Positions 8,081 to 28,208 of a DNA stretch of 47,357 nt are shown one piece after another. A program made the position numbers and the translations under genes. Each line of letters starts with the position of its first letter. Positions within the stretch are counted from its first letter, which is position 1. This DNA is from a virus, in IMG/VR virus record IMGVR_UViG_3300025108_000093, positions 1 through 47,357 of that record. One strand, 5' to 3'. The notes under the pieces are model-generated. The model had not been told where the DNA came from. It saw nothing but the letters and a program-made list of their open reading frames with translations, and ran no database searches.

Positions 8081-8095
8081 AATAGGAGATTAGTG

Positions 8096-8566: not shown

Positions 8567-8574
8567 GAGAAAAA

Positions 8575-8958
8575 ATGAATGGTATATACAGTCCAAGAAA
8601 AATATGGGATAAAGAATATTTTACTCAAAAAATGACAGCTCCTAAAGCAGCACAAATACAAAAAGGTTTTTGGGAAAGAATGGGTCCAACAATAGCAGGT
8701 GCATTTGCTAATGCTGTTGTTCCAGGTAGTGGAGGAATAGCTCAAGCCGCTGTTAGTGGACCAGAACCTATTACAGCAGAAGCTCCAACTAATGCTGTTT
8801 CAGGAATGCAAACAAATACAGAGCCTGTTAACATAGCAGGAAATACAACAATGACACGAGGACCTTTGGGTCAAATTGGTCAATTTAATAATCAATATAA
8901 TAAACCTTTTGATAATGAAGAGTATATGAGAAGGTTCGGAGGATTTAATTATGCCTAA
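8575..8958 (+). CDS. unknown small virion-cluster protein
   Basis: This 127-aa protein has the N-terminal pattern IW, then KMTAPKAAQIQKGFWER, then an Ala/Gly-rich hydrophobic stretch (about 42-58). The C-terminal part has RGPLG. The first half is laid out like the start of the next protein, suggesting a shared N-terminal module. AGGAGAAAA precedes the ATG. It overlaps the next gene by 8 bp. Confidence 0.6.
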   Translation: MNGIYSPRKIWDKEYFTQKMTAPKAAQIQKGFWERMGPTIAGAFANAVVPGSGGIAQAAVSGPEPITAEAPTNAVSGMQTNTEPVNIAGNTTMTRGPLGQIGQFNNQYNKPFDNEEYMRRFGGFNYA

Positions 8959-9727: not shown

Positions 9728-9748
9728 TATTAAACAAGGAGAATAAAT

Positions 9749-11941
9749 ATGGCTGGATATAATCAAGGCAGTACATACACTGGTGGATATGATAACTATA
9801 AAGAATATATTGCTGAACTGATGGAAAAAGCCGCAAGAGAAAGCTCTACCTTTGATAGTGAAGTTGAAGATCCAAATAGTGAGGTAGTAAAACAAACAAC
9901 TGAAGATTCTAATGGAACAAAACTTACTATTGAAAACAAAACAAACAACCCCAAGTGGAGGGGAGAAAACAACGAACTAAAACTATCATCAGGGAAAGAA
10001 AAAGAAGCAGGAAACAATACTAATAACTCTTCTGTTTTTGATGTGGACGAAAGTGGATTTAAAAAGGTTGTCATGCCAAATGATACAGTAGTGAAATCAA
10101 GTGGTGTTGATGAATTAACATCTCCAGAAACAGATGCGTTTTGGGAGCAGGAGATTGAAGATGAGTGGGATAGTAGATGGAATACATACCGAAAGAAAAA
10201 TGGACATGTAAATCTTCTACCTACTGATGAACTATTTAAAGATATGTTAGCGGACGATAATTATTATGAAGTCCTAGAAGACGATGGATCCTCGACTTTT
10301 ATACCAAACGCAGAAGCAGACCTATCAAAATCTTGGGAAGACGACTTAGCAATACCAAAAAGTAATACAGAAACAGAAGAAGCAGTATTAACTGAACAGC
10401 AAGCTATAGATAGAAATAATTCATTAGCTTTCTTTACAGAATTAGAAAAGTTTGATACTAGAGAACAACATGCTATGTTAAGTGGTACTGTAGGTGAATG
10501 GATTAAAGAAAATCCAACTGATGCCGCATTATTAGGAATAAGTATAATTCCAGTAGGTGGTCCTATATTATCATCATCAATTATGGTCGGCGGTAAAATT
10601 ATTGGAACAGTGGCTAATGTCACTAAGAACTCTAAGTGGGGTAAAAAGATTTATGATATGCTTTTTAGGAAGGATAAGTTTTTAGAAGGAAGTAAAGAAG
10701 CTTTAAAAAGTACACAGAGGAAACTAGCCTTAGCAAGAGAAGCAAAAAGGAAAGCTAAAGAAGTTTTAAGAAGGGCAGAACAAGCTTTAAAAAACACTAA
10801 AGCAAAACCAGGTTCTAAAGCATTTCAAGATTTACAAAGAGCCGTAGAAAAAGCAAAGACTAATTTTTTAACCCATGGTAAAACCATAAAAAAATTACAG
10901 AGTAATATAAAGTCTTTTAAACCAAATAAAGTTTACTCTCCAGAAAAGATTACAGCAGGTGTTGCTTTGGGCACTCTAGGTATTAAAAGTTTATTTGATG
11001 ATGAGCCAGAAGATAAAACCAATACAAGTAAATCTTCAGAAGAATTTATAGAAGAAAATAGAAAGGATGAATTAGATTCTTTTAGTGAAGCTTTAGCTAA
11101 CTTAAGAAAAGATAAAGAAAGTTCTACTATAGCTGATGCTGTACAAAATGATTCTAATGTTGCTAAACAGGTTCTTGATAATCAAAGACGTATTCAAGAT
11201 GAATATGGTATGGAACTAGCTAAAGATTTATTTACTGTAGCTGTTGGAGCCCTATCAGGTTTTAGTCCTATGGAAATATTAGGAGCAAAAGGTGATGAAC
11301 TTATTCTTGACCAAGCCCACGATAGAGCTATGGAACTTCAAGGATTTAAAGATAGTAAAGCTATGGCAAGAGATAAAGTTAAAGCGGATGCAAAGAGGGA
11401 TAAAGAACTAAGAACAACACACCAGTCTAATAGAGATAGTACCGAATCTAAAATGATGGATATTATCAAACAAGGTGGTAAGAGTGGAGGTAATTTAGAC
11501 TCCCTATCAAGCGAAGTCTTAGGTGCTTTAATGAAAGCAGATGAACTGAAAATCGATTTTGGTGATAAGGGTGTACAAAGAGCCCTTGTAAAAGCAACTC
11601 AACAAGCTGTTGAAAAAGGTGGTTGGTTTGATAGTGAAGACGAAGAATCTGCTAGAGCAAATATTACTGGTCATTTCTTAGGTAATATGGCTATTCTTTC
11701 AACTCAAGGAGGAAGTTTAAGTAAAGACGGTTATGCTCTTAAAGATGCTCAGGCAGTTAATAATGCAGCCTATACTAATTGGCTCTTCTCCAAACATTCA
11801 AAAGCAGAAATAAAAGCTGTTTCAACAGCAAAGTTAAATGAATGGAAAGAGATTAGGAAAACTAAAGGTGAGCAATGGATATGGTATAACAACTTTACAG
11901 GATGGGCTGTACAAAATCTGAAACAAACTGGGCAAATGTAA
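9749..11941 (+). CDS. internal virion / ejection protein, 730 aa
   Basis: The first 240 residues are acidic and apparently disordered. A hydrophobic, glycine-rich stretch follows at about 256-291. A long Lys/Ala/Arg/Glu-rich helix at about 305-395 is likely a coiled coil. A second mildly hydrophobic region lies near 490-510, and the remainder is helical. AAGGAG precedes the ATG. Architecture and position before two giant genes match podophage ejection proteins that form a conduit across the envelope. No enzymatic motif is seen. Confidence 0.6.
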   Translation: MAGYNQGSTYTGGYDNYKEYIAELMEKAARESSTFDSEVEDPNSEVVKQTTEDSNGTKLTIENKTNNPKWRGENNELKLSSGKEKEAGNNTNNSSVFDVDESGFKKVVMPNDTVVKSSGVDELTSPETDAFWEQEIEDEWDSRWNTYRKKNGHVNLLPTDELFKDMLADDNYYEVLEDDGSSTFIPNAEADLSKSWEDDLAIPKSNTETEEAVLTEQQAIDRNNSLAFFTELEKFDTREQHAMLSGTVGEWIKENPTDAALLGISIIPVGGPILSSSIMVGGKIIGTVANVTKNSKWGKKIYDMLFRKDKFLEGSKEALKSTQRKLALAREAKRKAKEVLRRAEQALKNTKAKPGSKAFQDLQRAVEKAKTNFLTHGKTIKKLQSNIKSFKPNKVYSPEKITAGVALGTLGIKSLFDDEPEDKTNTSKSSEEFIEENRKDELDSFSEALANLRKDKESSTIADAVQNDSNVAKQVLDNQRRIQDEYGMELAKDLFTVAVGALSGFSPMEILGAKGDELILDQAHDRAMELQGFKDSKAMARDKVKADAKRDKELRTTHQSNRDSTESKMMDIIKQGGKSGGNLDSLSSEVLGALMKADELKIDFGDKGVQRALVKATQQAVEKGGWFDSEDEESARANITGHFLGNMAILSTQGGSLSKDGYALKDAQAVNNAAYTNWLFSKHSKAEIKAVSTAKLNEWKEIRKTKGEQWIWYNNFTGWAVQNLKQTGQM

Positions 11942-11956
11942 ACGCAGGAGGCATAC

Positions 11957-14900
11957 ATGGTTGCAAATAAAGAATGGCTCATTGACAAATACGGAACCTT
12001 TGAAATGGGTGGACGTGAGTATTACTTAGAAGATGGTGATACATGGGTAGATACAAAGTCAGGAGAAGTATACCGTGGAAAAGGGTTTGATACAGCTGAA
12101 GTATTTCACGAAGAAGGGGAAGGAACTAAACCAGGAACAGCTAGAGGTTACCAACAAGCTCAAATTATCTCTGATGTTATCCGAGACCAGGGCTTTAGTG
12201 AACAAGAAGAAGAAGGCACAGGTTTTTATGGTAGAACATTAGGTGTTCCTTACAACCCAGAAACAGAAACATCTTTAAATAGAAAGCTACACCAAGAGGG
12301 TTTAGTTGATTTAACTTCTTACACAGGTAAAGGCGATCAAGAAGCTTATTGGGCAGGCAAAATGATGAGAAGCCTTGTGGGCGATGGAGATCAGTATTGG
12401 GATAGAGCTAGAAATGAACTTGATGTTGGTAGTGCTGGTGATATTTATATACCTAAACGACAAGCTATAGATGAAGCACAGTTCGCAGAAAGTCCTTGGT
12501 TGTATAACGATGTAATGTTCAGACATCAAGGAAGAAATATAAAGAACGAGGCTAATTCAGCATTTGCTACTGGATGGGACGCAGGCTGGAATAATATTTA
12601 TGGTTCATTACATGGATTTAAAGCAGCACTAGGTGATGCTATTGGCAACGAAGAAATGTTTCAAAACGGAACTATGGGGGTAGAAGAATATGAACATAAA
12701 AACTCTTTACTTCCTACTTATGCTCAAGATGTTGGCGAGATAGAAAACATAACACAAGCAGGTAGATATATGGCTGGTATGATGGGACAAGCATTACCTT
12801 ATATAATGGGTATCGCTGGTTCAGCAGCAGCTGGTTCGTTTATTGCAGGTGCTAGTGCTCTAGGATTAACTCTTGGTGCAATACCCCCAGCATTAACATA
12901 TGCTGGTGAAGTATACGGTAGTATGGAAGGCGATATGGACGAGCGTAATGCAGCCGCAGCATTGTCTGCAGGTATAGTAATGGGTGTATTAGATAGGGTT
13001 GGTTTACATGGGTTACTTAATTCAAGTTCTATACTTAAGAAAGATGCAATGGAAAAGATAGCTATCGAACTTCAAAAAAAGAAAGGTCTTTCTGAAGCAG
13101 CAGCTAAAGCTAAAATAAAAGAAGCAACATTCCAAGTTGAAAAAGAAGTTGCAGATGCAGCTGGAGCAATAGCACATATTGAAATGAGTAAAACTTTATT
13201 GGCTAAGGAATTTGGAACCTCTTTCTTAAAAGGAGCTGGGAGTGAAGGTGTTACTGAGGGTTTACAAGAATCAACTTCTTATGCAGCATCAGTAGCTGGA
13301 TCTAAAAGAGAATGGAATGATGAGGATTATAAAAGAATTCTTGTGAATGCTATTACTGGTGGTGCTTTACTAGGTGGTACATTAGGTGGTACTTTAACAA
13401 CTGGAAAAGGGTATGGCTCATTTAAAAAAATGCAAAGACAATATTCTCAAGCATCTACAGACGTAGCTAAAAACTTCTTTGGTGATGGTAATAATATAGA
13501 ACAGTATGACGCTTGGATTAATCATTTAGAAATTGAATCAAAAGACGAATTAAGAAATACGTTTAACAGACTATTTAATACTAGCATAGAAGATGAAAAA
13601 TATGGTGAAGCAATAAGAGATTTTAAACAATGGAGAAAAGAGTCTGAAAATGGAAATTTAGCTGGACCTATGCATAAGAAGTACAGTAATATAAAGGAAG
13701 AACTTGAAAAGCTAAATAAAAAAATAATCGACCCTGAAGCAGAGATAACAAAGAGCTCTAAAGCAGATGAAGAAGAAGGGCGTAAGGCGGACAGTATAAA
13801 AGAAAAGGGTGTACTAAGAACTCTTGCTGAACTTCCTGGCAGGGCTGTACAAAAGGGCGGGGCAAGACTATTAGAAAAGTTTATGAATAGTAATGATGTA
13901 AGTGATGCAGCAAAGCATAAGCTTGCTATTATAATGGATACATTTGCTCCCTCTAACACATCTCATATGGCAGGTATGGCTGCATACAAATATAAAACAC
14001 TATTAATGCATAGCCTTTTAAACCACGCTGACATGGTCAAATCTGAGTTTATTCGTATATTTAATACTAGGAAGGCGGGTAAGGATTATAATACGAAAAT
14101 GAGAGAATTTGAAGCTTGGCAGAGAGAAACTGATGAAGGTAACACTAATGGACCTATGCATAAAAAGTATAGATATATTGAAAAAGACTTGATTACACTA
14201 CATGAAAGAATAAATAGTTCAACTAACGCCCTTTGGGCTGCACATAGTAATTTAGTAGAGGAAGTTAGAGACCCTTTAAAGGGTTATTTTTACAAATCTG
14301 CTGTGTTAAATCCAGAGGCTGTCAGAAAAAATAAAGAGTTATTTATCCAAACATTAGTTACTGGCTGGCATTCTCCTGCAGAAGGGAAAAAACCACCTGA
14401 TTTAAGAAGAATGAAGCATGAAGCAGCTGTGCAATTATGGGAGGATATTGTTAATACTCCCGAAGGATACGCCCACGATAACACTAAAGATATTGCATTT
14501 AAACATCGTAAGGCTGGTACCCTAAGAAGAACAGAGTTATATCTTAGAGATTCTCAAGTAATGAATGAGGTTTTCTTAGAGAAAGATAACTTTGAAAAGT
14601 TGAAGCTTAATATTACCTCTACCATTAACCATGATATGGATAGAAAAATGCTTGGTAAAAATGGTATAAATTTAGATAGGGCGTTAATAGACCTTAAAAA
14701 AGAAATGGGAGATACTTGGGACCCTAGAATTAATGCTTTAGTTAAAGACTCTGTTGCAGCAAGTAGGGGAGATTATAAACCAATAAGCAATAAGTTCTTG
14801 GCTAGTATTCAAGGGCACTTAACTTTCATTGGAACAATAACTCAACTTGATACATCTGTACTTGCGTCTTTACCTGAGATAGGTTTATTACTTCTTAATG

Positions 14901-16042
14901 CACCAAAGCATGGAGGAATTGTAGGAATAATTAAAAAGGCTAGTAGAGACTTAAAGAAACATTATAAAAGGTCTTTAATAGAAACAGCTCAGAATGTAAA
15001 GAGTGGTCTAGGAATAAATATGGACGAATACACCCAAAACCAATTGGATTTTTATAACTTTGGTTATGATTCAATTAAGCATGGTGTAATGGGACATATG
15101 GATATTGGACAAGAAATTGATCATATGTCTAAGTTTAAAAAGAATATGCTACAAACTTTCTTTACTTTAAACTTACTTAAACCATATACTGATAGTACTC
15201 GTGTAGCTAAATTAGCAATGGCACAAGATGCAATTGTTGATGATTTATATATTGTATCTACATATTTAGATGGCGGAAGTAACTATGCAGCTGATGCTTA
15301 TGAAAGGTTAAGGGAATTAAATGTTAACCCAACTAAACTAGCACAAGAATATAAAGATGCTATCATAATATTGAGAGCTGACCCTACAATTATAAATAGA
15401 GATGTAATGTATAATAAAATAGCTAACGATGAAAGGTTTGTTAATTTAATAGAACAGTTACAGATTGCTAGGAACTCATATGTAGATAACGTGTTAGCTA
15501 ATCCTAATGCAATAGATAGACCTTTATGGTACTCTAATCCTCATTTTAGGTTAATGACACAATACAAGGGTTTCCTATCAACTTTTACTTCTCATATTCT
15601 ACCTAGGATTTATAGGCAGGTGAGGCATGGTAATCCTGAAGCAAGATATCAGGCGGTTGCAATGGCTGCAACTATGATTATGTTTGGGTTTTTAGGACAA
15701 GACTTAAAAGATGAATGGAAATTTAAAGATGGATATAATCCATGGATAGAAGACACAGCAGAAATACAAAGAGGACTAGTGTCTTCTGGATTATTAGGAA
15801 CTCCTGGAGAGTTAGTGAATATCATTCATCCTATTTATGATTTTAATAGAGACGCTATAGACTTTGCTAATGAATTTGCAGGACCTTTTACAGGAACTCT
15901 GGCTAATTCAGCTAAGTTAATCGAAAGTGTTGTAGGTGGAGATGGAGCAAGAGCTGCTTATTATGGAAAGAAATTTACTCCTTTAGTGGGTAGATGGAAG
16001 GGCTTCAATGAAAGAGGTGGTTCAAGTGAAATTAGCTTTTAA
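11957..16042 (+). CDS. giant internal virion protein with SNase-like N-terminus
   Basis: This 1361-aa protein has the N-terminal pattern EDGDTW (25-30), R40 and GFDTAE (43-48). It resembles the calcium-binding and active-site strand order of staphylococcal-nuclease-like domains, but this is pattern-level only. Residues about 268-325 form a Gly/Ala-rich hydrophobic hairpin suited to membrane insertion. Residues about 535-595 and 696-750 are an internal duplication ending in GPMHKKY. Near 1210-1240 is another hydrophobic patch. AGGAGG precedes the ATG. It is most likely the main DNA-ejection protein, delivered with the genome into the host. Confidence 0.65.
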   Translation: MVANKEWLIDKYGTFEMGGREYYLEDGDTWVDTKSGEVYRGKGFDTAEVFHEEGEGTKPGTARGYQQAQIISDVIRDQGFSEQEEEGTGFYGRTLGVPYNPETETSLNRKLHQEGLVDLTSYTGKGDQEAYWAGKMMRSLVGDGDQYWDRARNELDVGSAGDIYIPKRQAIDEAQFAESPWLYNDVMFRHQGRNIKNEANSAFATGWDAGWNNIYGSLHGFKAALGDAIGNEEMFQNGTMGVEEYEHKNSLLPTYAQDVGEIENITQAGRYMAGMMGQALPYIMGIAGSAAAGSFIAGASALGLTLGAIPPALTYAGEVYGSMEGDMDERNAAAALSAGIVMGVLDRVGLHGLLNSSSILKKDAMEKIAIELQKKKGLSEAAAKAKIKEATFQVEKEVADAAGAIAHIEMSKTLLAKEFGTSFLKGAGSEGVTEGLQESTSYAASVAGSKREWNDEDYKRILVNAITGGALLGGTLGGTLTTGKGYGSFKKMQRQYSQASTDVAKNFFGDGNNIEQYDAWINHLEIESKDELRNTFNRLFNTSIEDEKYGEAIRDFKQWRKESENGNLAGPMHKKYSNIKEELEKLNKKIIDPEAEITKSSKADEEEGRKADSIKEKGVLRTLAELPGRAVQKGGARLLEKFMNSNDVSDAAKHKLAIIMDTFAPSNTSHMAGMAAYKYKTLLMHSLLNHADMVKSEFIRIFNTRKAGKDYNTKMREFEAWQRETDEGNTNGPMHKKYRYIEKDLITLHERINSSTNALWAAHSNLVEEVRDPLKGYFYKSAVLNPEAVRKNKELFIQTLVTGWHSPAEGKKPPDLRRMKHEAAVQLWEDIVNTPEGYAHDNTKDIAFKHRKAGTLRRTELYLRDSQVMNEVFLEKDNFEKLKLNITSTINHDMDRKMLGKNGINLDRALIDLKKEMGDTWDPRINALVKDSVAASRGDYKPISNKFLASIQGHLTFIGTITQLDTSVLASLPEIGLLLLNAPKHGGIVGIIKKASRDLKKHYKRSLIETAQNVKSGLGINMDEYTQNQLDFYNFGYDSIKHGVMGHMDIGQEIDHMSKFKKNMLQTFFTLNLLKPYTDSTRVAKLAMAQDAIVDDLYIVSTYLDGGSNYAADAYERLRELNVNPTKLAQEYKDAIIILRADPTIINRDVMYNKIANDERFVNLIEQLQIARNSYVDNVLANPNAIDRPLWYSNPHFRLMTQYKGFLSTFTSHILPRIYRQVRHGNPEARYQAVAMAATMIMFGFLGQDLKDEWKFKDGYNPWIEDTAEIQRGLVSSGLLGTPGELVNIIHPIYDFNRDAIDFANEFAGPFTGTLANSAKLIESVVGGDGARAAYYGKKFTPLVGRWKGFNERGGSSEISF

Positions 16043-16056
16043 TAAAGGAGTATTTG

Positions 16057-19000
16057 ATGGCTTATAGTAATGTTAGTACAGGAAAGTATGGCGGTAAAAA
16101 ACAAGAAGAAAGACATGTTATTAATGAAAAAAGAATCGAGGAAATAATAGCAGAAAACCAAAAGAAAAAAGCTGATGATGACGAATTTGAAGCAATATTA
16201 AGAGAGTCTGAATACACCCAGCCTATTGTTAGCCCCGAAGCTTCTGAAGGATTACAAAATGTTCTTGATAACGCTGTAAAAAACCCTAGTGTTGGTGCGG
16301 CTATGGGTGTCATTGAGGCAATACCACCAAGACCAAACACTAATCAAGGTGTTATGTCTGGTCCAAATGTAGAAACTTTGACTGATATGGATTTGGTTAA
16401 TAGGGGTGATACATCTGAGTCAGCAGCTACATCTTTAAGAGAGGCTATTAATGCTCAAGATCAAGAGGCTGCTTTAAATATAATGGGTGGAATCGAAAAT
16501 GCCAATATTGTTTTAGAAGACCACAAAGATTACTCTGCTAAAGTAATTAATCAGATGAATAATTTAACCACTGGTATGTCATCAGCATCTTACGAAGATT
16601 ACATTAATAGAGCGGCAGAAGATTTAAGAACAGACCCAAGGTCTGTTGCTGAATATATGAGCACTTGGTTGACAGATTTTAAAACTCTAGAATCTAATGG
16701 TGTACCTGAAGCTTTCTCGGATGCAGCTTTACATGCTGTGTTACATGTGCTTAAAGATAAAACTCTTGGTGTAAAAGAAGGCATTAAAGATGATAAACAG
16801 ACGGAAGAAACACGAACAGAACAAGAGAATAAAAACGCTACTGTAGCAACACATGAAGCTATTGGAGGAATAATTGAAGGTGCTTTTAAAGTTAAGAATG
16901 GAACCCCAACAACTAGGGCTATAGGTGGAGCTCTTGCTTTGAGAGCTGTGACGGATGCTTTAGGTTCTGTTACATACAAAGATAAAACAACAGAAAATGT
17001 TAACAAAATGGGGTTATTTAAAACAGAATTAGAAAGAGTAGATGATAAAGATGTCTATGTAACTAAGCTTACTGAAGCTGGTTTAAATGCAGCGGAAGAA
17101 TTATCTGAATTAGGAAACCTTGTTATACCTGGCATGAAAAGAGATGTTCATAGCAATCCACCATTAAGACAAACGGGTGCATTAGCAACAGTCTCTAAAC
17201 AACTACAAAGAAAAGAAGACCCTAATAGAAGAGCAGGAAAGGCTGAAGATACTAACAAAGGTATTCATGCTTTGAATGGTGTTAAACATAAAATAAACAA
17301 AGATTTGGCTGCTAAAATTAATGATTCATTGAGAAACCAAGAGGTTGTAGATATCTTAGAGGGCCCAAACTTTATAAATATAGAGGGTATTGAATGGAAT
17401 GGCAAAATCCATAAGAGAAGGGAGAATGGAGAAACATACAGGGTTAGATATATAGTACAGGATTATATAAATGGCCAACCTAATACTAACCCAGGAAGAA
17501 AAGTTCCAAACCCTAACTATGGTAATCCAGCTGCTGAAGACTCTAATCAACAATGGTTAGTAGAAGAATATCATGGAGACTTTGCAAAAGATTTAGCTTG
17601 GAATGAAACTTGGCAGTGGATTGCGAATCATGTTGAAGATGGTTTCTTTTACTATACACATTTTATTGGAGGAGCTAAGAGGGTTCATGTTGATCAAACA
17701 TTGGGTAACTATCAATCTAATAAATTAGCTAGGGGTTTACTTGAGGCAGCTCAAACCATTGTATATAACTTAACATCTCAGAATGACCTTGTACCTTTGC
17801 AAGCTGGAATCTTAAAAAAGTTTGGAATGAACAAAGTCAAACATGGTAGTAATAAACAAATAGCAGACCAATTTAATGGGATTGTAAGAGGTTGGAAAGC
17901 AATACAAGATGCTCACACAAATGCAGGCGGTGCTGGTATAGCACCTGAACTTGTAAGAAAAGCTGGAGAAGAAGAGGGTTGGTCTTCGATAAATGCTATA
18001 CATGAAGGTATAAAACTTTTTGAGTATATGAGAGACCCACAGAATAAACTTAAAGAATACAGGTCTGGATTTATAACAGAAATCGATGGAACTGCTAATG
18101 GTGTAGCAATTAATTCAATGTATGCTGGAGATCAAAAAACTGGTTTATATACTGGCATGTTGGGTGCAGACCCACATAACGATGTTTACACCTTAACAAC
18201 TGATATGTTTTTAGAGATAACAAATAACTATAGTGGTTCATTAGGACCAAAGTTTTCTCATATATGGCAACAGTTAGGGGCACAAAGAAAGTACGCTAAA
18301 AAACCCTTAATGACTTTTGGATACGGTGCTGGTGAAGCATCTATTAAAAACGCTTTTAAAAATGAACTATGGAGTGAAATAGAAAATAGTGCTGAGTTTA
18401 AAGGTAAATTAAAAGAGATATTAAAAGATGAAAGGTTGTTTCATAAGTTTGTCGAAGATTCTGCAGTGGCAATGCAAACAGCAATTGGTACTAATTTTCC
18501 TAATCTACAGTCGTTGTCTAAAGTTATAGCTGCTATTGTTACGAGAGCTGTAGAATTAGGCGTAGCACCTCGCACTATTACTGATAATAATGATTTTATA
18601 GAGTTTGGTTTATCTGAAAGAGTAATAGATAAATCTAAGAGTTTTAAAGGAAGCTTAAATAAAAAAGCAACCGCAAAACAAAAAAGTCGAAGCTTGTATT
18701 TCAATACATTTGAAAGGGTTAATGACCCAGCTGGAAAGACTTACAGTAAATCAGCAGAAATTGGTACTTACAAAGCATCTAAACAAGCTCCTGTTTTGGT
18801 AACCCAATCAATGGATTCCTTGGTAATGATGCGTACAATGGATAAAATGAAGAAGCGTTTTGGTAATAATTTTTATGCTGCTCAAATCTTTGACGGTGTT
18901 ATGATACCACCTAAGCATGCTAAAGCTTTTTCTGAAGCCCTACATAAAGAGTTGATTCATTTGGGAAAAAATTACAATGTTATTAATAATTTATTAGAAG

Positions 19001-19344
19001 GTATTTACAATACTGACCCAGCTAGATTTTATGATTGGGCAGTAAAGGCTGGTATGGAAAAGAAACACGAGCATAATTGGCAAGAAATTATGAGGTATGC
19101 TTTAGGTACAGAAAATACTAAAGAAGGAATGCCAGCTATTTATATTTACAATAGAATGAAAAGTGAGGCTGCTGGTAAGACTATTAAAACTCCACACTCT
19201 GTGCAAAAAATTATTAATCGTTTGAATACATTAAGAGGAGAATATGTTGCAAAGATGAATATAGAAGATATGTATCAGTATGGTTGGGACTTTCCAACTC
19301 GCCAGTCTGACCAACACGTTCAGGATTTTAAAGCATCTCGTTGA
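16057..19344 (+). CDS. candidate virion single-subunit RNA polymerase
   Basis: A TTG at 16054 precedes the ATG at 16057. The ATG fits AAAGGAG at 16044-16050 and gives 1095 aa. The second half holds the T7-family catalytic order. A DxxGR-like region is at 532-556 (FYYTHFIGGAKRV, R542, then KLARGLL). Motif A is D677 in DGTANGVAINSM. Motif B is R744-x3-K748-x7-Y756-G757 in RKYAKKPLMTFGYG. Motif C is D946 in QIFDGVMIPP, preceded by QSMDSL. The spacing R542 to D677 and D677 to D946 suits this family. The first 500 residues are helical and unknown. As the last gene of the ejection cluster it may be packaged and injected like N4 vRNAP; packaging is inferred. Confidence 0.8.
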   Translation: MAYSNVSTGKYGGKKQEERHVINEKRIEEIIAENQKKKADDDEFEAILRESEYTQPIVSPEASEGLQNVLDNAVKNPSVGAAMGVIEAIPPRPNTNQGVMSGPNVETLTDMDLVNRGDTSESAATSLREAINAQDQEAALNIMGGIENANIVLEDHKDYSAKVINQMNNLTTGMSSASYEDYINRAAEDLRTDPRSVAEYMSTWLTDFKTLESNGVPEAFSDAALHAVLHVLKDKTLGVKEGIKDDKQTEETRTEQENKNATVATHEAIGGIIEGAFKVKNGTPTTRAIGGALALRAVTDALGSVTYKDKTTENVNKMGLFKTELERVDDKDVYVTKLTEAGLNAAEELSELGNLVIPGMKRDVHSNPPLRQTGALATVSKQLQRKEDPNRRAGKAEDTNKGIHALNGVKHKINKDLAAKINDSLRNQEVVDILEGPNFINIEGIEWNGKIHKRRENGETYRVRYIVQDYINGQPNTNPGRKVPNPNYGNPAAEDSNQQWLVEEYHGDFAKDLAWNETWQWIANHVEDGFFYYTHFIGGAKRVHVDQTLGNYQSNKLARGLLEAAQTIVYNLTSQNDLVPLQAGILKKFGMNKVKHGSNKQIADQFNGIVRGWKAIQDAHTNAGGAGIAPELVRKAGEEEGWSSINAIHEGIKLFEYMRDPQNKLKEYRSGFITEIDGTANGVAINSMYAGDQKTGLYTGMLGADPHNDVYTLTTDMFLEITNNYSGSLGPKFSHIWQQLGAQRKYAKKPLMTFGYGAGEASIKNAFKNELWSEIENSAEFKGKLKEILKDERLFHKFVEDSAVAMQTAIGTNFPNLQSLSKVIAAIVTRAVELGVAPRTITDNNDFIEFGLSERVIDKSKSFKGSLNKKATAKQKSRSLYFNTFERVNDPAGKTYSKSAEIGTYKASKQAPVLVTQSMDSLVMMRTMDKMKKRFGNNFYAAQIFDGVMIPPKHAKAFSEALHKELIHLGKNYNVINNLLEGIYNTDPARFYDWAVKAGMEKKHEHNWQEIMRYALGTENTKEGMPAIYIYNRMKSEAAGKTIKTPHSVQKIINRLNTLRGEYVAKMNIEDMYQYGWDFPTRQSDQHVQDFKASR

Positions 19345-19364: not shown

Positions 19365-19417
19365 AAAAAAAACCCCCTACAAGATTCCGTTAAGGCCTCT
19401 TGTAGGGGGTTTTTTTT
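19365..19417. terminator. bidirectional intrinsic terminator between convergent operons
   Basis: A perfect 12-bp stem, CCCCCTACAAGA (19373-19384) with TCTTGTAGGGGG (19398-19409), has a 13-base loop. It is flanked by an A tract on the left and a T tract on the right, so it makes a U-tailed hairpin in both directions. It lies between the end of the late plus-strand operon and the end of the minus-strand operon. Confidence 0.95.
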
Positions 19418-19691
19418 AGTATCCACGAACCTTTATAACTTGTTTTAGGTTCTTTTCTGCTTCTTTTCTAAGTTTATTTGCGATTTTATAAGCTTCTTTT
19501 TGAGCTTTATCTGGTCTCATTCCTTTTTCTATTAAGGCTTCTTTTTCGTCCTTAACATTGTTCACGCCAATAATGTCTAGCATTGCTTCGTTTATCTCTG
19601 GTTTTCCTTCTAGCTCTGGAGATAAATTAAATTCTTTAATGAATTCTGCGTCTGTTATTCCATGCTGACTCATAATATTATGATCTTTCAT
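19416..19691 (-). CDS. unknown small soluble protein, 91 aa
   Basis: This charged helical protein has a Lys/Ala/Glu-rich C-terminal half (about 48-85) that could form a coiled coil. AGGAG precedes the ATG. It is the last gene of the leftward operon and its stop abuts the terminator. No family is recognised. Confidence 0.65.
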   Translation of the reverse strand: MKDHNIMSQHGITDAEFIKEFNLSPELEGKPEINEAMLDIIGVNNVKDEKEALIEKGMRPDKAQKEAYKIANKLRKEAEKNLKQVIKVRGY

Positions 19692-19699
19692 GTTTGCTC

Positions 19700-19888
19700 C
19701 TAGTGGTTGGTTATTATAGAAGAGCCGACTTGTTTCGACTCTTCCTCTTCTTCAGATAAATAATTTAACATTGAATCTATCATGTTACTATTATCATCTA
19801 TAGTAAATACCATTTCGATAACTTCTGTTCTGTTTAGTTTACTTTCTTCGTTATCAATAATAGTAAATGTTGCTTTACATGTTTTCAT
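19700..19888 (-). CDS. unknown small protein, 62 aa
   Basis: An upstream ATG at 19951 is possible, but AAGGAG sits just before ATG 19888 (MKTCKATFTI), so the shorter form is chosen. The protein is beta-like at the start and acidic near the end (SEEEEES). No family is recognised. Confidence 0.6.
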   Translation of the reverse strand: MKTCKATFTIIDNEESKLNRTEVIEMVFTIDDNSNMIDSMLNYLSEEEEESKQVGSSIITNH

Positions 19889-19916
19889 GTTTTCTCCTTT
19901 TGTTTTTTCATTGTAA

Positions 19917-20117
19917 TCAAATAGCTTGGTACAATATTCTTTCAGGTTCATGATATTCTCTTTTTAATTGTTCACTTACAGTGTTATCATCTCTTTGCAT
20001 ACATCTTTCCATATATCCTTCAAAGACACCATCTTTTTTCATTCCTGCTGATTTAGCAATTTGCTCATAATTTCTTGCTAGTATTGTACACGCTTGAATT
20101 TTACTTGTTTCAGTCAT
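19917..20117 (-). CDS. unknown small protein, 66 aa
   Basis: This is a short helical protein with two cysteines (IQACTI, ERCMQR). AAGGAG precedes the ATG. It lies in the compact tail of the replication operon. No family is recognised. Confidence 0.6.
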   Translation of the reverse strand: MTETSKIQACTILARNYEQIAKSAGMKKDGVFEGYMERCMQRDDNTVSEQLKREYHEPERILYQAI

Positions 20118-20126
20118 TTTTTCTCC

Positions 20127-20324
20127 TTATGTTGATTGTTTTTTATTTATTATTTTTATACGGTAACCATCCTTCGATAATTGATCAATTTCATAATCAA
20201 TTTTTCCATCATGATAATTTATTAATGCAGCAGTTACCCCCTCTTGGAACTTTGTTTCTCCATGTCTCCATGTTATGTACCCGCCAACAATGGTGAGTAC
20301 TATTACAAATAGTATTTCTATCAT
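20127..20324 (-). CDS. small single-pass membrane protein, 65 aa
   Basis: The N-terminal residues 2-18 (IEILFVIVLTIVGGYIT) form one membrane segment. A soluble tail with several charged residues follows. AAAAGGAG precedes the ATG. The layout suits a small inner-membrane protein such as a lysis accessory or exclusion factor, but no family is recognised. Confidence 0.65.
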   Translation of the reverse strand: MIEILFVIVLTIVGGYITWRHGETKFQEGVTAALINYHDGKIDYEIDQLSKDGYRIKIINKKQST

Positions 20325-20335
20325 ATATTCTCCTT

Positions 20336-20503
20336 TTATTTTTTTTCTTGAAGTGCGACTCTATTAAAGCCGAGTTTTTTTAGGATTAGAAGCGTCTCTA
20401 GCCATGCCTCACATTGGGTTGTTATACCAGTGTCGTGTGACTCTCTTGAAATCTTATAACATCGTTCAATTGCTTCGTTAGTGTTTATCGTCCTGGTTGT
20501 CAA
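20336..20503 (-). CDS. small protein with TTG start, 55 aa
   Basis: The frame from TTG 20503 to TAA 20336 lies in the apparent gap between the membrane protein and the resolvase. AGGAG stands six bases before the TTG, inside the resolvase gene, so the two genes overlap in different frames. The protein is helical with two cysteines (ERCYKI, TQCEAW) and a basic C-terminus. No family is recognised. The well-placed ribosome site and the filled gap are the support. Confidence 0.55.
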   Translation of the reverse strand: MTTRTINTNEAIERCYKISRESHDTGITTQCEAWLETLLILKKLGFNRVALQEKK

Positions 20504-20891
20504 TGAATTCTCCTATGAGCTCAACAACAATATGGTCTTCTACATCCTTACCAGCCTCACCAAAATCTACTGTGTAGCCTTTGACATATTGGTAATTATC
20601 GTCTTTTATCTTTCCACCATCTACAATTGCATCCATTAAAAACTTATGAACAGGAAACCAGTAATTATCTAAGTCTTTTTTTTGGTTTCCTTTAAAGAAC
20701 AACGTGTACTCTGGACGCAACCATAAATACTCTGGTAGGCTATCAACAAAGGGCTCAATAAGCTCAGAGTAATGTTTTTTACATTTAGCTTGAGAACCCC
20801 AGTGCATTTTTTTAAATATATTTTGTGATAATTTAACTGCTTTACCTTTACGAGTGTATGTTGGATATTCTAATATAGCATTGTATTTCAT
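20478..20891 (-). CDS. RusA-like Holliday junction resolvase
   Basis: This 137-aa protein contains KKDLDNYWFPVHKFLMDAI (about residues 70-88) followed by DGGKIKDDNYQY. This matches the RusA family pattern of D-x-D-N then a lysine and a second acidic cluster, which binds metal and cuts four-way junctions. Its length is typical. The ATG overlaps the exonuclease stop as ATGA, so the two are translationally coupled. It likely resolves recombination intermediates before packaging. Confidence 0.8.
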   Translation of the reverse strand: MKYNAILEYPTYTRKGKAVKLSQNIFKKMHWGSQAKCKKHYSELIEPFVDSLPEYLWLRPEYTLFFKGNQKKDLDNYWFPVHKFLMDAIVDGGKIKDDNYQYVKGYTVDFGEAGKDVEDHIVVELIGEFIDNQDDKH

Positions 20892-21700
20892 TTTATTCTC
20901 CTAATAGACCAAGCACCAGTGTTGTTATTCTTATTTACTTGAACTTGGTTACCTTTATAGGATTTTCCATCGCATAAGTCTATTAATTGTTGTCTAAGTT
21001 GTTTTTGTTTGATTGTAGCCTTATCAACATCATCTTTTGCTTTTTTCCATGCTTTTGCAATATCAAACCATTCTTTGTCATCTCTAACAATAACATCTTT
21101 ATCTCCAGCTATAGGTTTTTCTTTGAAATATTTAGCCCAACCATTTAATATTTGTTGTTGGATCTTTTTATCTTGTTTTACTATCCTATGTAAACCAACT
21201 TTGTTTTTTCTATCATAAACCCAAAAACTACATTGGTTTTGTTTAGATAATAACATTTGTTGTTGCATTTGTAAGACATAATGCATAGGAAGTTCCTCGT
21301 CTAACTCCATGTTTGCCCATAACGGAGAGCAAGAGCCACTAAATGGCACTTTTATCTCTAAGATAGAGTTACCCTTGCCTCTTTCCATTCCGTCCAAGGA
21401 TGCCATTAATGGAAGCCCATTAATTGTATCTGTTATACAACATGGTTTGTATTTTGTGTTTGTTATGTTTTCAAATAACTTTCTTGCTTCGTCTTCTGTT
21501 TCTGAACCAATTCTCATTGCATCTGTTAGCTTAATCTTTATCTCTCCATTTTTAACTTTCCATAATTGTAATGGTGTTTTTGGAGTCCAAGGAGAAAGTT
21601 CTAACACTGCTGCAACTTCTGACGCTGTACCATGTTGGTTTCTAACTTCTAACCATTTTTTACTTCCTTGAGGAAGCTGTTTGTCTGTATATATTTTCAT
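20888..21700 (-). CDS. YqaJ-type viral exonuclease
   Basis: This 270-aa protein has the lambda-exonuclease-like fold signature. ASEVAAVLELSPW is near residues 26-38, then SETEDEARKLFE (66-77), a catalytic D103 in ASLDGM, E115-I-K117 in LEIKVP, and YVLQMQQQML. Such enzymes degrade one DNA strand for annealing recombination and work with an SSB or annealing protein; the gp2.5-like SSB in this operon is the likely partner. ATTAAAAGGAA precedes the ATG. Confidence 0.85.
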   Translation of the reverse strand: MKIYTDKQLPQGSKKWLEVRNQHGTASEVAAVLELSPWTPKTPLQLWKVKNGEIKIKLTDAMRIGSETEDEARKLFENITNTKYKPCCITDTINGLPLMASLDGMERGKGNSILEIKVPFSGSCSPLWANMELDEELPMHYVLQMQQQMLLSKQNQCSFWVYDRKNKVGLHRIVKQDKKIQQQILNGWAKYFKEKPIAGDKDVIVRDDKEWFDIAKAWKKAKDDVDKATIKQKQLRQQLIDLCDGKSYKGNQVQVNKNNNTGAWSIRRIK

Positions 21701-21839
21701 ATTATTCCTTTTATTGTTTAGTTTAATTGGCTGTTATGTATGTCGGAGACAGCCACCCCGCTAAACTGTTCTATTGGTTATGAAAAGGGTAAACATGTAA
21801 ACCCCAAAGGAGACCAATAGAAAAGGGCATACACTCCCT
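21701..21839. other. intergenic region with two inverted repeats
   Basis: No gene is seen in these 139 bases between the helicase stop and the exonuclease start. They hold GGCTGT (21729) with ACAGCC (21749), and a longer TTCTATTGGT (21769-21778) with ACCAATAGAA (21813-21822). The latter encloses GGGT and ACCC around a palindromic ACATGT. In the leftward transcript this is an RNA leader upstream of the exonuclease. Confidence 0.6.
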
Positions 21840-23378
21840 TTAATCTGTGTCTCTTTCTTTCTTTTGTAATTCTAACATATTTTTCTCTTTTCCTTTTCTA
21901 TATCTTATCTGTAAATGCTTTACATACGACTTTGTTGCTTTTGTAGGCATACTGGCTTTATATGTTTTCTTAGGAGGCCATATTCCGAATCTTTGTTTAT
22001 ATTTATATGATGCCCACGTCTCTTTGTAATCTTTGATCGCAGCCATTCCTAATAACTCTTCATAAAATACATCTCTAAAATCATCTCCATATTTCTCTTT
22101 AGCATCGGCAATCCTTGTTTTCTTGTTAACTAATCCTAATTGTGAATCTATAAAAGATATATAATCTGATTTTGATTCATGCATCTTACCACATGATGGA
22201 CATATATTTGACCCAGAGTATGTTCTAAAACAACCTTCACAAATAATAACAGATTCTTCTTTAGTTGATTGTTTTTTATCGGCTGTCTTTTTAACCATTC
22301 CTTTTGTTAAGTCCCACTCATGGTTATCGTCTATAAAACCATTTATATAAACTGCACCTGAATGGTCTATAACCATAGCATTTTCTTTGTTTTTGTACGG
22401 TCTAAGAACTCTTCCTACCATTTGAATATACAAACCTAGAGATTTAGTTGGTCTTGCCAATATACAAACTTCAGCAGACGGAGAATCAAACCCCTCTGTT
22501 AGAACCATACAATTACATATTACTGTAATCTTTCCTTCTTTAAAATCATTTAATATTTGTTCTCTTGTGTCGTTATCAGTTGACCCGTCTAGATGAGCAA
22601 CTTTAACTCCCATTGATTTGAATGATTCAGTTAGATTTTTGGAATGTTTTATTCCAGAAGCAAAAACAATTGTTTGTTTACCTTTGGCTAAATGTTTCCA
22701 TGTGGTTGCTATATCACCAACTAGTTTTGGTTGGTCCATTCTTTCTTCTAATACTTTAGAATTGAAATCCCCACCAATAATACCTATTCCTTTTAAGTCG
22801 GGAATAGCTGGCGAATAGTATATTACTTTAACCAACGAACCTTGACTTGTTAGCTTTTTGATATTTGGAGCACAAACCATATGCTCATATATAGAACCTA
22901 AACCATCACCGTTTCCTCTTACGGGAGTAGCTGTTAACCCTATAATTATTGAATTTTTGTATTTGTCTATTAGTTTTAAATATGTATTTGATAAAGACCT
23001 ATGACATTCGTCTATAAATACAATGTCTGCTCTTGGTAGAGACATTTTCTTTGAGTTTAAAGCTCTAGCTCTTAAAGTATCTACTGATGCTATTTGAACT
23101 TTCTCTAAACTATTAGACTTTATATTAGCCATAATAATCCCATGCTTTATATCAGAACTTTCTAGTTTTTCTGATGCTTGTTTTATTAACTCTCTTCTAT
23201 GGGCTAAAAATAATATCTTTAAATTATTCTTTGTAAAATAATTAACTAAAGCTGAAGCCATTACAGTCTTTCCTGAACCCGTAGCAGCTTGAAGAATAAT
23301 TCTTTTTTTACCTTCGTTTTTTGACTTGACTAATTGATTTAATACATCTTTTTGATATTGTCGTAATTCGTAGCTCAT
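21840..23378 (-). CDS. SF2 DNA helicase (UvsW/Ssl2-like)
   Basis: The frame extends to 23501, but homologous-looking sequence begins at ATG 23378 (MSYELRQYQ), giving 512 aa. Motifs are AATGSGKT (31-38, K37), DECH (123-126), LTATPVRG near 149, a conserved helicase half with FASGIKHSKN, and VGRVLRP. A Cys4 zinc ribbon (CEGCF...CPSCGK) follows the helicase core. The start has no ribosome site of its own but overlaps a 22-codon reading frame as ATGA. It probably unwinds recombination or replication forks; it is not a DnaB-type replicative helicase. Confidence 0.88.
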   Translation of the reverse strand: MSYELRQYQKDVLNQLVKSKNEGKKRIILQAATGSGKTVMASALVNYFTKNNLKILFLAHRRELIKQASEKLESSDIKHGIIMANIKSNSLEKVQIASVDTLRARALNSKKMSLPRADIVFIDECHRSLSNTYLKLIDKYKNSIIIGLTATPVRGNGDGLGSIYEHMVCAPNIKKLTSQGSLVKVIYYSPAIPDLKGIGIIGGDFNSKVLEERMDQPKLVGDIATTWKHLAKGKQTIVFASGIKHSKNLTESFKSMGVKVAHLDGSTDNDTREQILNDFKEGKITVICNCMVLTEGFDSPSAEVCILARPTKSLGLYIQMVGRVLRPYKNKENAMVIDHSGAVYINGFIDDNHEWDLTKGMVKKTADKKQSTKEESVIICEGCFRTYSGSNICPSCGKMHESKSDYISFIDSQLGLVNKKTRIADAKEKYGDDFRDVFYEELLGMAAIKDYKETWASYKYKQRFGIWPPKKTYKASMPTKATKSYVKHLQIRYRKGKEKNMLELQKKERDTD

Positions 23379-23443
23379 TTGAATGTTTTGTATAATGAAA
23401 CCCCGATAAACAATATAAAATAAACCGTTAAAAATATTTCCAT
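23375..23443 (-). CDS. 22-aa hydrophobic leader peptide coupled to helicase
   Basis: An ATG at 23443, six bases after AAAGGAG, opens a frame of 22 residues (starting MEIFLTVYFILFIGVSL) that is almost wholly hydrophobic. It stops at TGA overlapping the helicase ATG. The strong ribosome site exists only here, so translation of the helicase is likely coupled to it. The peptide itself could be a small membrane protein or only a leader. Confidence 0.55.
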   Translation of the reverse strand: MEIFLTVYFILFIGVSLYKTFK

Positions 23444-23505
23444 GTTTTTCTCCTTTTGTGTTTAGAATGCCTGTTAAGGTACAGGCAAACCATATACTCA
23501 TTTAT

Positions 23506-24051
23506 TTAAAATGGTATGTCCTCATCGCCAGCATCGGCTGTTACTTTTTCTAGGCTAACTTTTTCTTGAGGTTTTGTGTCGAATGAAGGTATAAATTCCC
23601 CTCCATCTTCATCAAACTCCACTAAGTCTAGAACTTGAACTGCTTGAAGCTCTAACGATGTATTTTGAACTCCATCTCGTGTCCAATTATGTGCTGAACA
23701 TTGGACGTTGCATATTGAACCATTACCAATCAATTCATTGAATGGGTTGCCATATGTGTCTACAACGATAACTGGCTTTTTAGGTTTACCACCTACTCCG
23801 AAAGTAGTTGATTTCTTCAATTTTACTTGACGAAGTCCATCCTCTAAAACCAAATCATGTTCGGCATCCCTCTTGAATTTTGGGAATAGTTTTGTTTCTT
23901 TATAGGCATTTGCCTGCTCGTCTGATAAAACGACTTGGATAGTCCAGTTATCAACACCTACACCTTGGAAGGGAGGCTCTGGATTATCATCACGCAATTT
24001 TGCCCATAGGACTTTTACATTCTCGAAAGAATATTTATTTATATTTGACAT
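23506..24051 (-). CDS. T7 gp2.5-like single-stranded DNA-binding protein
   Basis: This 181-aa protein resembles DUF2815-type phage SSBs. Strand-rich N-terminal sequence (YSFENVKVLWAKL, PPFQGVGVDNWTIQVVL) forms an OB-like core to about residue 145. An acidic tail ends in DAGDEDIPF, and such tails recruit partners in this class. GGAG precedes the ATG. A promoter-like element lies about 90 bases upstream. It likely acts with the exonuclease in annealing recombination and coats replication intermediates. Confidence 0.8.
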   Translation of the reverse strand: MSNINKYSFENVKVLWAKLRDDNPEPPFQGVGVDNWTIQVVLSDEQANAYKETKLFPKFKRDAEHDLVLEDGLRQVKLKKSTTFGVGGKPKKPVIVVDTYGNPFNELIGNGSICNVQCSAHNWTRDGVQNTSLELQAVQVLDLVEFDEDGGEFIPSFDTKPQEKVSLEKVTADAGDEDIPF

Positions 24052-24078
24052 TATTGTCTCCTTTTATTGTTATATTAG

Positions 24079-24090
24079 CTCTATATAGAA
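24079..24090. repeat. 12-bp shared element CTCTATATAGAA
   Basis: CTCTATATAGAA here is identical to 37354-37365. At both places it lies 50-60 bases downstream of a copy of the 20-bp promoter-like element, though its orientation relative to that element differs. It may be a second promoter class or a binding site. Confidence 0.4.
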
Positions 24091-24138
24091 CTAATTTTAT
24101 TAATAGCAAGTCTTGTTATTTTCTTGCTTTTCTTTTCC

Positions 24139-24158
24139 CTCTATAAGGGCAACATAGG
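24139..24158 (-). promoter_or_regulatory. T7-like phage promoter candidate, copy 3
   Basis: Minus-strand CCTATGTTGCCCTTATAGAG followed by GGAAA. The 20 bases are identical to 37274-37293 and 37663-37682. CCTTATAGAGGGA resembles the T7 promoter core CACTATAGGGAGA. It lies between the RNA polymerase gene and the SSB gene and points towards SSB, helicase and exonuclease. Promoter function is inferred from repetition, placement and resemblance. Confidence 0.55.
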
Positions 24159-24188
24159 ATTTCTTCATATCTACCAAGGCTTGTAGCC

Positions 24189-26624
24189 CTAACAGAAGAA
24201 ATACTTTGATATCCTTATTTCATTCAAATCCAAAAGACCTGATTCAGGCATTTGTATTTTGAATTCTTCATCGTTATCTACGAACTGTTCTTTCATATCT
24301 TTTATGATGTTACAATCGTACATATCGATAAATACCTCTTTTGTTGTTTCTAACAATTTATCTACATCATCAGCATGAACTGAAAATGAATCATGTATTG
24401 CTCCAAAAGAAGATATTCCTATATCTTTTAAATGATTTATAACTAGACACATATGACTTGCATCCATAGAATGCACATAATTTGGACTTATGCCCGACAT
24501 TATTTCATGCAGTGCTGGTTTATCTGTTGTTTCATAATAAACAAGGTCTATACGGGTTTTGTTAATTCTTACAACTGTTTTTCTTTTCTGTGTCGTCCAC
24601 TTTTCTGATTTAACTTCAAAACCACTAGGTGTTTTCCATTCAGCTGATTCATATCCTAGCTTTGTTATTCTATATTTAGTAAGCTCTTGTAAGTAATTTT
24701 TAATTGCCACTGGTCCTGAACATAGACTGTTATACGTTCCTACTAAATCTTTAGCTAATTTGTTTGCTATACTTCTTGTTATTTTGTATTTCTCTGTCAT
24801 TCCTGCATCATAGCAATCGGTATATATTATGTTAGCTATACATTTCACACCTGCATCATAAGCTTTAGTCATCGTTCCTCTTTTGCTTATTCCCTTTCGT
24901 ATTAGTTTCATAGGTATTTTAGAAAGTATTTCACCTAAATCATTTCCCACGTTCTTATTTATTATTCCTTTAGCAACTATTATATAGAAGTCTATTGGTT
25001 TTTCTTGAGGTGTAAGACCCACCATCTTTCCTGCTACTTGGTCTTTACTCATTGCAGCTAAATGTTGTGTTCCGTTTACTGAACCATCTATTGCTATTGG
25101 TATTTGTGTGTAGTAGTCTCCTTCTTCAGCTAAATACTGAACAACCTCAAAACATAACGATAAAAATACCCATGGTTTTTCCGCATTTAACCAAATCTCT
25201 TTTGTTTTTATTGGATCCATTGCTATTTCTAATAACATATCTAAGTTGTTCTCTGCCCATTTTATTCTATCTTCCAATGTCATTTTATCTACTGATATGT
25301 CGGGTATATTATCTTCTTTTAGTTCTGTTAAATAATCACCTTCTATCCAATCTAGTTCTTCTAATTCCTTTATTTTGTATGATTGGTTATAGCTGTTTGC
25401 AATATGAATTAACATAAACTTATAGCCCTTATCTGTCATTATCTTTTTCTCTGCGAACATTAAATGTCCTCTTGCTAAATCAGATGATTGATATGAAAAG
25501 TATGGGTCTCTTGCATAAACTCTTCCTCTAAAATCCAAAAAGTTAGACATATAAAACTTATAACCTAACCATCCTGGAGTTTTTGTGTCTCCATGTATTG
25601 TATTTAGAATAAATTCGTCTCTGTTTGATTTTGACCTTAACCGTAAACACTTCTGTTTTGCTAACCAATACTTGTTTTCTATTTCATAGTCCACTATTGC
25701 TTTTTCAAGCTTTCTAGTTTCTTTATCGAAATTGTTTGTATTCGTTTTAAAGAGTTTTAAATTCTTTTCAATCTTCTTTATTTCTCTCTCTATTGCTTGA
25801 ACTTTAGCACTGTTTCCTTTATGTGGTTCAAATAAGGTACCATTATTAAATAAATCAACATTTTTAAGGTGTTTGTTTTTGTTTTCTCTCTTTATATCGA
25901 GAACGCTAAACTCTTCCATTTTGCCATCTTTTGTCTCTAGGCTTATGTCGGTATTAGTTAAATGTTTTTGTAGTAATTTGGATATCTGAGCTACGTTAGG
26001 ATTAACTTCCCACTGAACTTCTTCTAATGAATTTATCGCTTTTATAAATTCAGGTGGATTTTGCTTATTTATCTTGATTGAATTTTTAACTAAAATATCT
26101 ACGCATCCTAAAACCATTCTTTCTCTAGAATTCCATTTTGGATATTTCCTTATACTTATACCTGTTCTTTCTTTTATTGGTAGTTTTATATCTTTAAATC
26201 TTTTTCCTAGCTCTAAATGGTATGGTTGGAATCTAATGTTTCTTTTTATGCCATATATTTTAATTGTTTCATATGTTATATATTCTTCTCTGTGTAAAGT
26301 AAGATAATCTTTTTTGATAAGTGACTCAATTATTAATGAACCTAATTGAGCGTTTTTATGTGTGTTTATATTGGGTATATTTAATGAACGTGATGATATT
26401 TCTCCTACTTTAATTAAAGTATTAGTTAACCAAATCATTCCTTTGTTTTTGCTAAAGGTATATGTTAAATAATTAAATGTTTCTAGAACAATTGTATATG
26501 TTCTAAAGTCATCCCTTAAGCATTTCGCATCTCTGAATAATCTTACTGCAGTTCTTTTATTGTTTTTAAAATCTGTTACTGTTTGTTCTATATCCCATAC
26601 TATTTCTTGTACTTTATATTCCAT
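24189..26624 (-). CDS. T7-like single-subunit RNA polymerase
   Basis: This 811-aa protein has the family motifs in order: DFRGRVYA (364-371), motif A D513 in AIDGSVNGTQHLAAM, motif B around K577-K581-Y589 in KGISKRGTMTKAYDAG, H718/D721 in YVHSMDASH and motif C D745 in IHDSFSV. The length is close to T7 RNAP. Motif B departs from the usual R-x3-K...YG in having K577 and D590. The start overlaps the primase end, with AGGGGG as ribosome site. It likely transcribes middle and late phage genes. Confidence 0.93.
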   Translation of the reverse strand: MEYKVQEIVWDIEQTVTDFKNNKRTAVRLFRDAKCLRDDFRTYTIVLETFNYLTYTFSKNKGMIWLTNTLIKVGEISSRSLNIPNINTHKNAQLGSLIIESLIKKDYLTLHREEYITYETIKIYGIKRNIRFQPYHLELGKRFKDIKLPIKERTGISIRKYPKWNSRERMVLGCVDILVKNSIKINKQNPPEFIKAINSLEEVQWEVNPNVAQISKLLQKHLTNTDISLETKDGKMEEFSVLDIKRENKNKHLKNVDLFNNGTLFEPHKGNSAKVQAIEREIKKIEKNLKLFKTNTNNFDKETRKLEKAIVDYEIENKYWLAKQKCLRLRSKSNRDEFILNTIHGDTKTPGWLGYKFYMSNFLDFRGRVYARDPYFSYQSSDLARGHLMFAEKKIMTDKGYKFMLIHIANSYNQSYKIKELEELDWIEGDYLTELKEDNIPDISVDKMTLEDRIKWAENNLDMLLEIAMDPIKTKEIWLNAEKPWVFLSLCFEVVQYLAEEGDYYTQIPIAIDGSVNGTQHLAAMSKDQVAGKMVGLTPQEKPIDFYIIVAKGIINKNVGNDLGEILSKIPMKLIRKGISKRGTMTKAYDAGVKCIANIIYTDCYDAGMTEKYKITRSIANKLAKDLVGTYNSLCSGPVAIKNYLQELTKYRITKLGYESAEWKTPSGFEVKSEKWTTQKRKTVVRINKTRIDLVYYETTDKPALHEIMSGISPNYVHSMDASHMCLVINHLKDIGISSFGAIHDSFSVHADDVDKLLETTKEVFIDMYDCNIIKDMKEQFVDNDEEFKIQMPESGLLDLNEIRISKYFFC

Positions 26625-27540: not shown

Positions 27541-27549
27541 ATTACCTCC

Positions 27550-28179: not shown

Positions 28180-28208
28180 TTTATTCTCCTTTTTACAAAA
28201 ACACACAG

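Follow-up and report, generated by a model that had tools for sequence, protein, structure and literature searches.

An uncultured short-tailed phage, known from a 47,357-base virus record (the window), encodes a stand-alone, virion-type single-subunit RNA polymerase (RNAP) of 1095 aa, designated P0001, at positions 16057-19344 of the + strand. This assignment is based on Pfam and PHROG matches, a complete lack of Cys and the position of the gene as the last of the late genes. The RNAP domain, the full set of catalytic residues, the absence of Cys and the late-operon location are shown. We consider it likely, with a probability of roughly 0.76, that P0001 is an active RNAP the size of a mini-virion RNAP (mini-vRNAP) that is packaged, ejected and used to transcribe the early genes; packaging, ejection, catalysis and early transcription are all inferred.

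The P0001 gene and its genomic context

The late genes of the phage lie on the + strand and run from the terminase/portal side (39.7-47.4 kb) across the ends of the record to 19.3 kb, with the early and replication genes on the - strand from approximately 37 kb down to 19.4 kb. The first-pass annotation, made without database searches, had described a 1095-aa open reading frame at 16057-19344 and proposed that it encodes an additional single-subunit RNAP, placed last in the ejection-protein operon. Both claims held. The frame has an ATG at 16057 and a stop codon at 19342-19344, its start is separated by 14 nt from the end of a 1361-aa gene, and a good ribosome-binding site (AAAGGAG) is present upstream of the ATG. 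P0001 is the final gene of the late operon, where it adjoins two Cys-free ejection-type proteins and is convergent with the early genes. Given that three other contigs carry a near-identical gene (2-3 nt differences), it is not an assembly artefact.

The neighbouring 1361-aa protein (11957-16042, +) was identified as a large ejection or internal virion protein, having no Cys and matching PHROG 6958 (virion structural protein) at 1.2e-17. It is homologous to gp34 of Roseobacter phage CRP-7 (hhalign 99.8%, E 8e-29), the nearest isolate as judged by the portal (44%) and by this 1361-aa protein. An equivalence with the N-terminal (NTD) or C-terminal domain (CTD) of the N4 polymerase was rejected, as profile comparison gave no support. 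The preceding 730-aa protein (9749-11941, +) is a probable ejection protein on the basis of its position and lack of Cys; family searches, including PHROG, returned no match for it.

An 811-aa polymerase had also been claimed for this phage, and this was confirmed: the gene at 24189-26624 (-), in the convergent early/replication operon, encodes a clear T7-type RNAP (Pfam 1.9e-71) with 10 Cys that groups with T7-like enzymes in the tree. By sequence, the phage encodes two single-chain RNAPs. Within the early/replication stretch (19400-37060, -), genes for a primase, a helicase, SSBs, a RecE-like exonuclease and RusA were recognisable. Despite the two RNAPs, no DNA polymerase was found among the large ORFs of this stretch, and given that absence the record may be incomplete. 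Elsewhere in the window, the rightward operon begins with an Hsp20-type chaperone gene (38403-38819, +), and among the structural genes lies one for a metallophosphoesterase (825-1595, +).

A second virus species (L004) was found to encode a 1078-aa protein, P0002, that is 57% identical to P0001 and occupies the equivalent genomic position, flanked by a 1300-aa ejection-type gene and by convergent genes, one of which encodes an 811-aa T7-type RNAP. When further members were sought by catalytic patterns in IMG/VR and genome contigs, only these two viral species were found. The other motif B matches from the pattern search were giant Schitoviridae-type vRNAPs rather than new members, and a candidate in L057 was rejected as a tape-measure-like protein.

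Polymerase domain, catalytic residues and lineage

P0001 matched the Pfam RNA_pol family (PF00940) at E=9.3e-11 with a score of 41.6 (cut-off, 22 bits) and PHROG 414 (RNA polymerase) at 1.9e-21, far beyond chance, such that membership of the polymerase family, as originally claimed, held. For P0002 the corresponding values were 2.4e-13 and 4.2e-26, and this protein additionally matched PHROG 2206, the N4-type "virion RNA polymerase", at 1.4e-10. A profile built from these two proteins only was then aligned by hhalign to a Schitoviridae vRNAP set of 13 cores (97.5%, E 5e-12) and to a T7-like set (98.4%, E 9e-15). Taken together with the motifs described below, these data show that P0001 carries a real single-subunit RNAP domain, in which motifs A, B and C follow one another in the expected order. 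The sequence outside this core resembles nothing known.

The residues assigned to the motifs by the first-pass annotation (D677; R744, K748 and Y756; D946) were all found at the positions given. Motif A, EIDGTANG (E675-G682; 18079-18102, +), contains the catalytic D677 and fits the vRNAP consensus ExDGxxxG (PMC10654107). Motif B, RKYAKKPLMTFGYGAG (18286-18333, +), contains R744, K748 and Y756 in a vRNAP-like arrangement (RxxAKxPL....YG.G). Motif C, IFDG (18886-18897, +), contains the catalytic D946; FDG is found at this site in most vRNAPs and HDS in T7-like enzymes. In the conserved helix preceding motif C, D920 of QSMDS (18814-18816, +) is invariant in the RNAP alignment. Upstream, R542 (17680-17682, +) was identified by alignment as the counterpart of R424 of N4 mini-vRNAP and R425 of T7 RNAP in the T/DxxGR block. 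A KLARGLL segment noted after R542 also held up, in that R542 and the following NYQSNKLARGLL (residues 551-562) align with the R...N[YP]Q block that T7 RNAP, the 811-aa RNAP and vRNAPs share. When 10 diverse RNAPs were aligned, among them giant vRNAP cores and the 811-aa T7-type enzymes of both viruses, the columns without variation included R542, Q553, D677, G678, N681, G682, K748, M752, T753, Y756, G759, D920 and D946. The catalytic set reported for N4 vRNAP (R424, D559, K670, Y678 and D951; PMC2784036) is therefore fully present in P0001 as R542, D677, K748, Y756 and D946.

One alternative is that P0001 retains a polymerase fold without catalytic activity and has taken on an ejection or structural role. 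In its favour are the location among ejection proteins, a degenerate T/DxxGR block (GAKR, in which the Arg is kept and the G is absent) and termini that evolve fast between P0001 and P0002 (26% identity at the N-terminus and 32% at the C-terminus). Several true vRNAPs likewise deviate from T/DxxGR (e.g., ISTNR and SNFR). Against it, all catalytic residues are kept at 57% overall identity, the regions surrounding R542 and D677 contain stretches of 25-30 residues without a difference, and we regard this alternative as very unlikely.

Structural data did not contribute to these conclusions. AlphaFold prediction from the two sequences gave an unusable model (pLDDT 30), and prediction from an alignment already containing known RNAP cores gave a low-confidence, partly circular one (pLDDT 43); neither was good enough to judge the polymerase palm and fingers. 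In a Foldseek search with the latter model, RNAPs alone were recovered at E<=1e-3, with a TM of only about 0.25 and the same partly circular input. These outcomes were excluded as a test of the fold. A PDB profile search with the RNAP-containing alignment was equally non-independent, and the PDB searched with the two-sequence profile yielded no match to an RNAP chain.

The motifs had been attributed to the T7 RNAP family, and this held only in part. Motif A of P0001 is not followed by the QH of T7-like enzymes (DGTANGVAIN versus DG..SG.QH) and motif C reads IFDG, not the T7-like HDS, so that the signature across motifs A, B and C (ExDGxxxG; RxxAKxPL; FDG) is that of N4-type vRNAPs. Core identity is approximately 15% both to T7-like enzymes and to vRNAPs, slightly higher to the latter. 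In two trees the T7-like clade excluded P0001 with support of 99/96 and 100/98, and the Schitoviridae vRNAP clade also excluded it (99/97 with 22 rows, 91/82 with 29 rows). Nesting of the P0001/P0002 pair inside either clade is not favoured by the trees. The pair probably represents a deep-branching third lineage among single-subunit RNAPs, between the T7-like and Schitoviridae clades, with the reservation that branches are long and the exact position is uncertain. These data also bear on the possibility that P0001 is an ordinary extra T7-type RNAP placed beside the late genes by recombination. The best profile scores are indeed to T7-like families (PHROG 414; hhalign 98.4%). However, the missing QH and HDS, the placement outside the T7-like clade, the lack of Cys and a position kept in two diverged genomes all speak against this explanation, which we hold to be very unlikely.

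Inferred packaging and comparison with known virion polymerases

No Cys is present among the 1095 residues of P0001 or the 1078 of P0002. The same is true of 13/13 Schitoviridae vRNAP cores checked, whereas T7-like RNAPs, including the phage's own 811-aa enzyme, have 9-14 Cys each. At the Cys rate of the early genes of the phage (1.71%), 18.7 Cys would be expected in P0001 and zero has a P of about 8e-9; at the rate of the other late genes (0.40%), the P is 0.012. Injected vRNAPs are known from published work to be Cys-free (PMC3715699, PMC2784036). The late proteins of the phage are mostly poor in Cys, however, so the trait marks virion or ejected proteins in general and not RNAPs specifically. 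In the late stretches 3175-5130 and 6594-19344 (+), every protein of >=200 aa is Cys-free. A podophage study (PMC10747016) relied solely on size, helices and the absence of Cys when it proposed vRNAPs for StenR_269 and Zobellviridae. Such evidence is insufficient to call a vRNAP, since the 730-aa and 1361-aa neighbours of P0001 are non-RNAP proteins that also hold zero Cys.

In our preferred model, P0001 would be made late in infection and packed into the capsid alongside the ejection proteins. Ejection would then deliver it, together with the DNA, to the next cell, where P0001 would transcribe the early genes, among them that of the 811-aa T7-type RNAP, which would take over later. P0001 would thereby work as the mini-vRNAP domain of N4 gp50 does, but as a separate protein. 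Packaging is inferred because an RNAP made only late can serve early transcription only if carried in the particle; zero Cys, the N4- and V19-like gene position and this late-expression logic support it indirectly. The original suggestion that P0001 is packaged like N4 vRNAP at a third of its size thus remains the best-supported reading on indirect evidence only, with no virion proteomics or activity data.

Alternatively, P0001 could be an active RNAP that is made late and used within the same cycle, for example for late genes or replication priming, without being packaged. In support, its gene closes the late operon, and no copies of the T7-like promoter candidate turned up on the late strand; the late genes may accordingly be served by another enzyme. 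Nonetheless, P0001 has zero Cys compared with 10 in the cytoplasmic 811-aa enzyme, its gene directly adjoins those of ejection proteins in both species, a vRNAP precedent at the equivalent position exists in N4 and V19, and transcription of its own operon would require prior expression of P0001. We consider this alternative unlikely.

The packaged-polymerase reading finds its closest parallel in N4 gp50, which shares with P0001 the single-subunit RNAP family, the catalytic set, the ExDGxxxG, RxxAKxPL and FDG motifs, zero Cys, a spacing of 135 from the Arg to motif A, and a gene position at the end of the late genes, beside those for ejection proteins and in convergent orientation to the early genes. 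The differences are also clear. N4 gp50 comprises 3500 aa, with the RNAP domain (mini-vRNAP) at residues 998-2103, and N4-type vRNAPs of reference genomes span 2,842-3,820 aa (PMC10654107). With 1095 aa, P0001 falls short of this giant size and is not fused to an NTD or CTD, the ~1000- and ~1400-aa flanking domains of gp50, of which the NTD binds lipid and the CTD restrains activity (PMC12633501). Its length is close to the 1106 aa of the mini-vRNAP produced by trypsin (PMC4496689). Furthermore, P0001 lies outside the Schitoviridae clade, and the second RNAP is one 811-aa chain here but a gp15/gp16 heterodimer in N4. T7 RNAP shares the superfamily and catalytic residues (R425, D537, K631, Y639 and D812) but has QH after motif A, HDS and 12 Cys, and is an early gene product, in contrast to the late gene P0001.

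The combination of polymerases had been thought to be without a known phage type, and this part of the claim failed in part: in Schitoviridae a vRNAP is accompanied by RNAPII, and in Alteromonas phages R22Y and PT11-V19 a shortened vRNAP (2,083 and 2,082 aa) lies next to a second RNAP (PMC11705849). These shortened vRNAPs resemble P0001 in standing at the late-operon end, in V19 convergent with early genes. In V19 (L058:29487-38741) the N-terminal neighbour of the 2082-aa protein is a separate 1000-aa gene, making this a partly split vRNAP. Unlike P0001, the R22Y/V19 RNAP is still fused to a long C-terminal part, and the V19 motifs are divergent (SDATASG, RDLSKGPTMTFIY and VHDD). What is new is an RNAP alone at mini-vRNAP size, for which the R22Y/V19 enzymes are a partial precedent; no description of a stand-alone virion-type RNAP of ~1095 aa was found in the open-access literature searched. 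Compact virion RNAPs would be overlooked, because a large survey of N4-like viruses removed all vRNAP-like proteins under 2,500 aa (PMC10654107).

In CRP-7, the equivalent position is occupied by gp33 (1235 aa, annotated hypothetical; L006:17859-21566, -), a last late gene with zero Cys. Its candidate motifs (A, D678; B, K762/R766/Y774; C, IHDA with D979) are invariant in CRP-7 and relatives L008-L016, with the K and R of motif B exchanged relative to P0001. Profile similarity of gp33 to P0001 or to any RNAP was not detected; gp33 is at most a candidate, without profile support, for an unrecognised second virion RNAP.

The reason for the >10-kb gene of the N4-like virion polymerase has been described as unclear (PMC2784036). 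If our reading is true, a natural enzyme of mini-vRNAP size would mean that fusion to an NTD and CTD is unnecessary for packaging and ejection of an RNAP. P0001 could show how little protein an ejected RNAP needs, and would offer a small natural protein for studying the passage of an enzyme through tail and envelope. A bolder reading joins several proposals into one claim: that the RNAP, channel and anchor functions reside on separate ejection proteins, that this ancient polymerase lineage branches between T7-type and N4-type enzymes, that the giant gp50 of N4 is a later fusion, and that CRP-7-type marine phages carry another, unrecognised version. As a joint claim, we lean slightly against it.

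Candidate elements in the early region

The 847-nt early leader contains two hairpins with an 8-bp stem and a 3-nt loop, compared with 0.03 expected: AGTATACT-cag-AGTATACT at 37537-37555 (-) and TTACAAAA-tgc-TTTTGTAA at 37068-37086 (-). A similar scan of N4 recovered N4-type hairpins. The threshold (8 bp/3 nt) was picked after inspection of the data, and comparison of the two hairpins revealed no shared consensus. Their role as early vRNAP promoters is a hypothesis only, a speculative lead. Host-type promoters showed no excess in the leader (14 versus 17.2 expected).

The 32-nt sequence TATTCTCTCTATAAGGGCAACATAGGAATTTA, which resembles a T7-type promoter, is repeated exactly at 37268-37299 and 37657-37688 (-) and is a candidate promoter of the 811-aa RNAP; a scan of the late strand for this candidate gave no good copy. 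Lastly, four copies of a palindromic element of ~58 nt lie between early genes (-; 36103-36170, 36470-36530, 36732-36792 and 37856-37912), each starting at the stop codon of one gene. No Rfam match was obtained for any sequence searched, these elements included. As RNA they fold at -18 to -21 kcal/mol (z -4.9 to -6.8), and variants retain pairing via G-U. We dropped them as vRNAP promoters because in the early transcript they form strong hairpins at the RNA level and their variants keep this pairing; the elements may instead be RNase III sites or attenuators.
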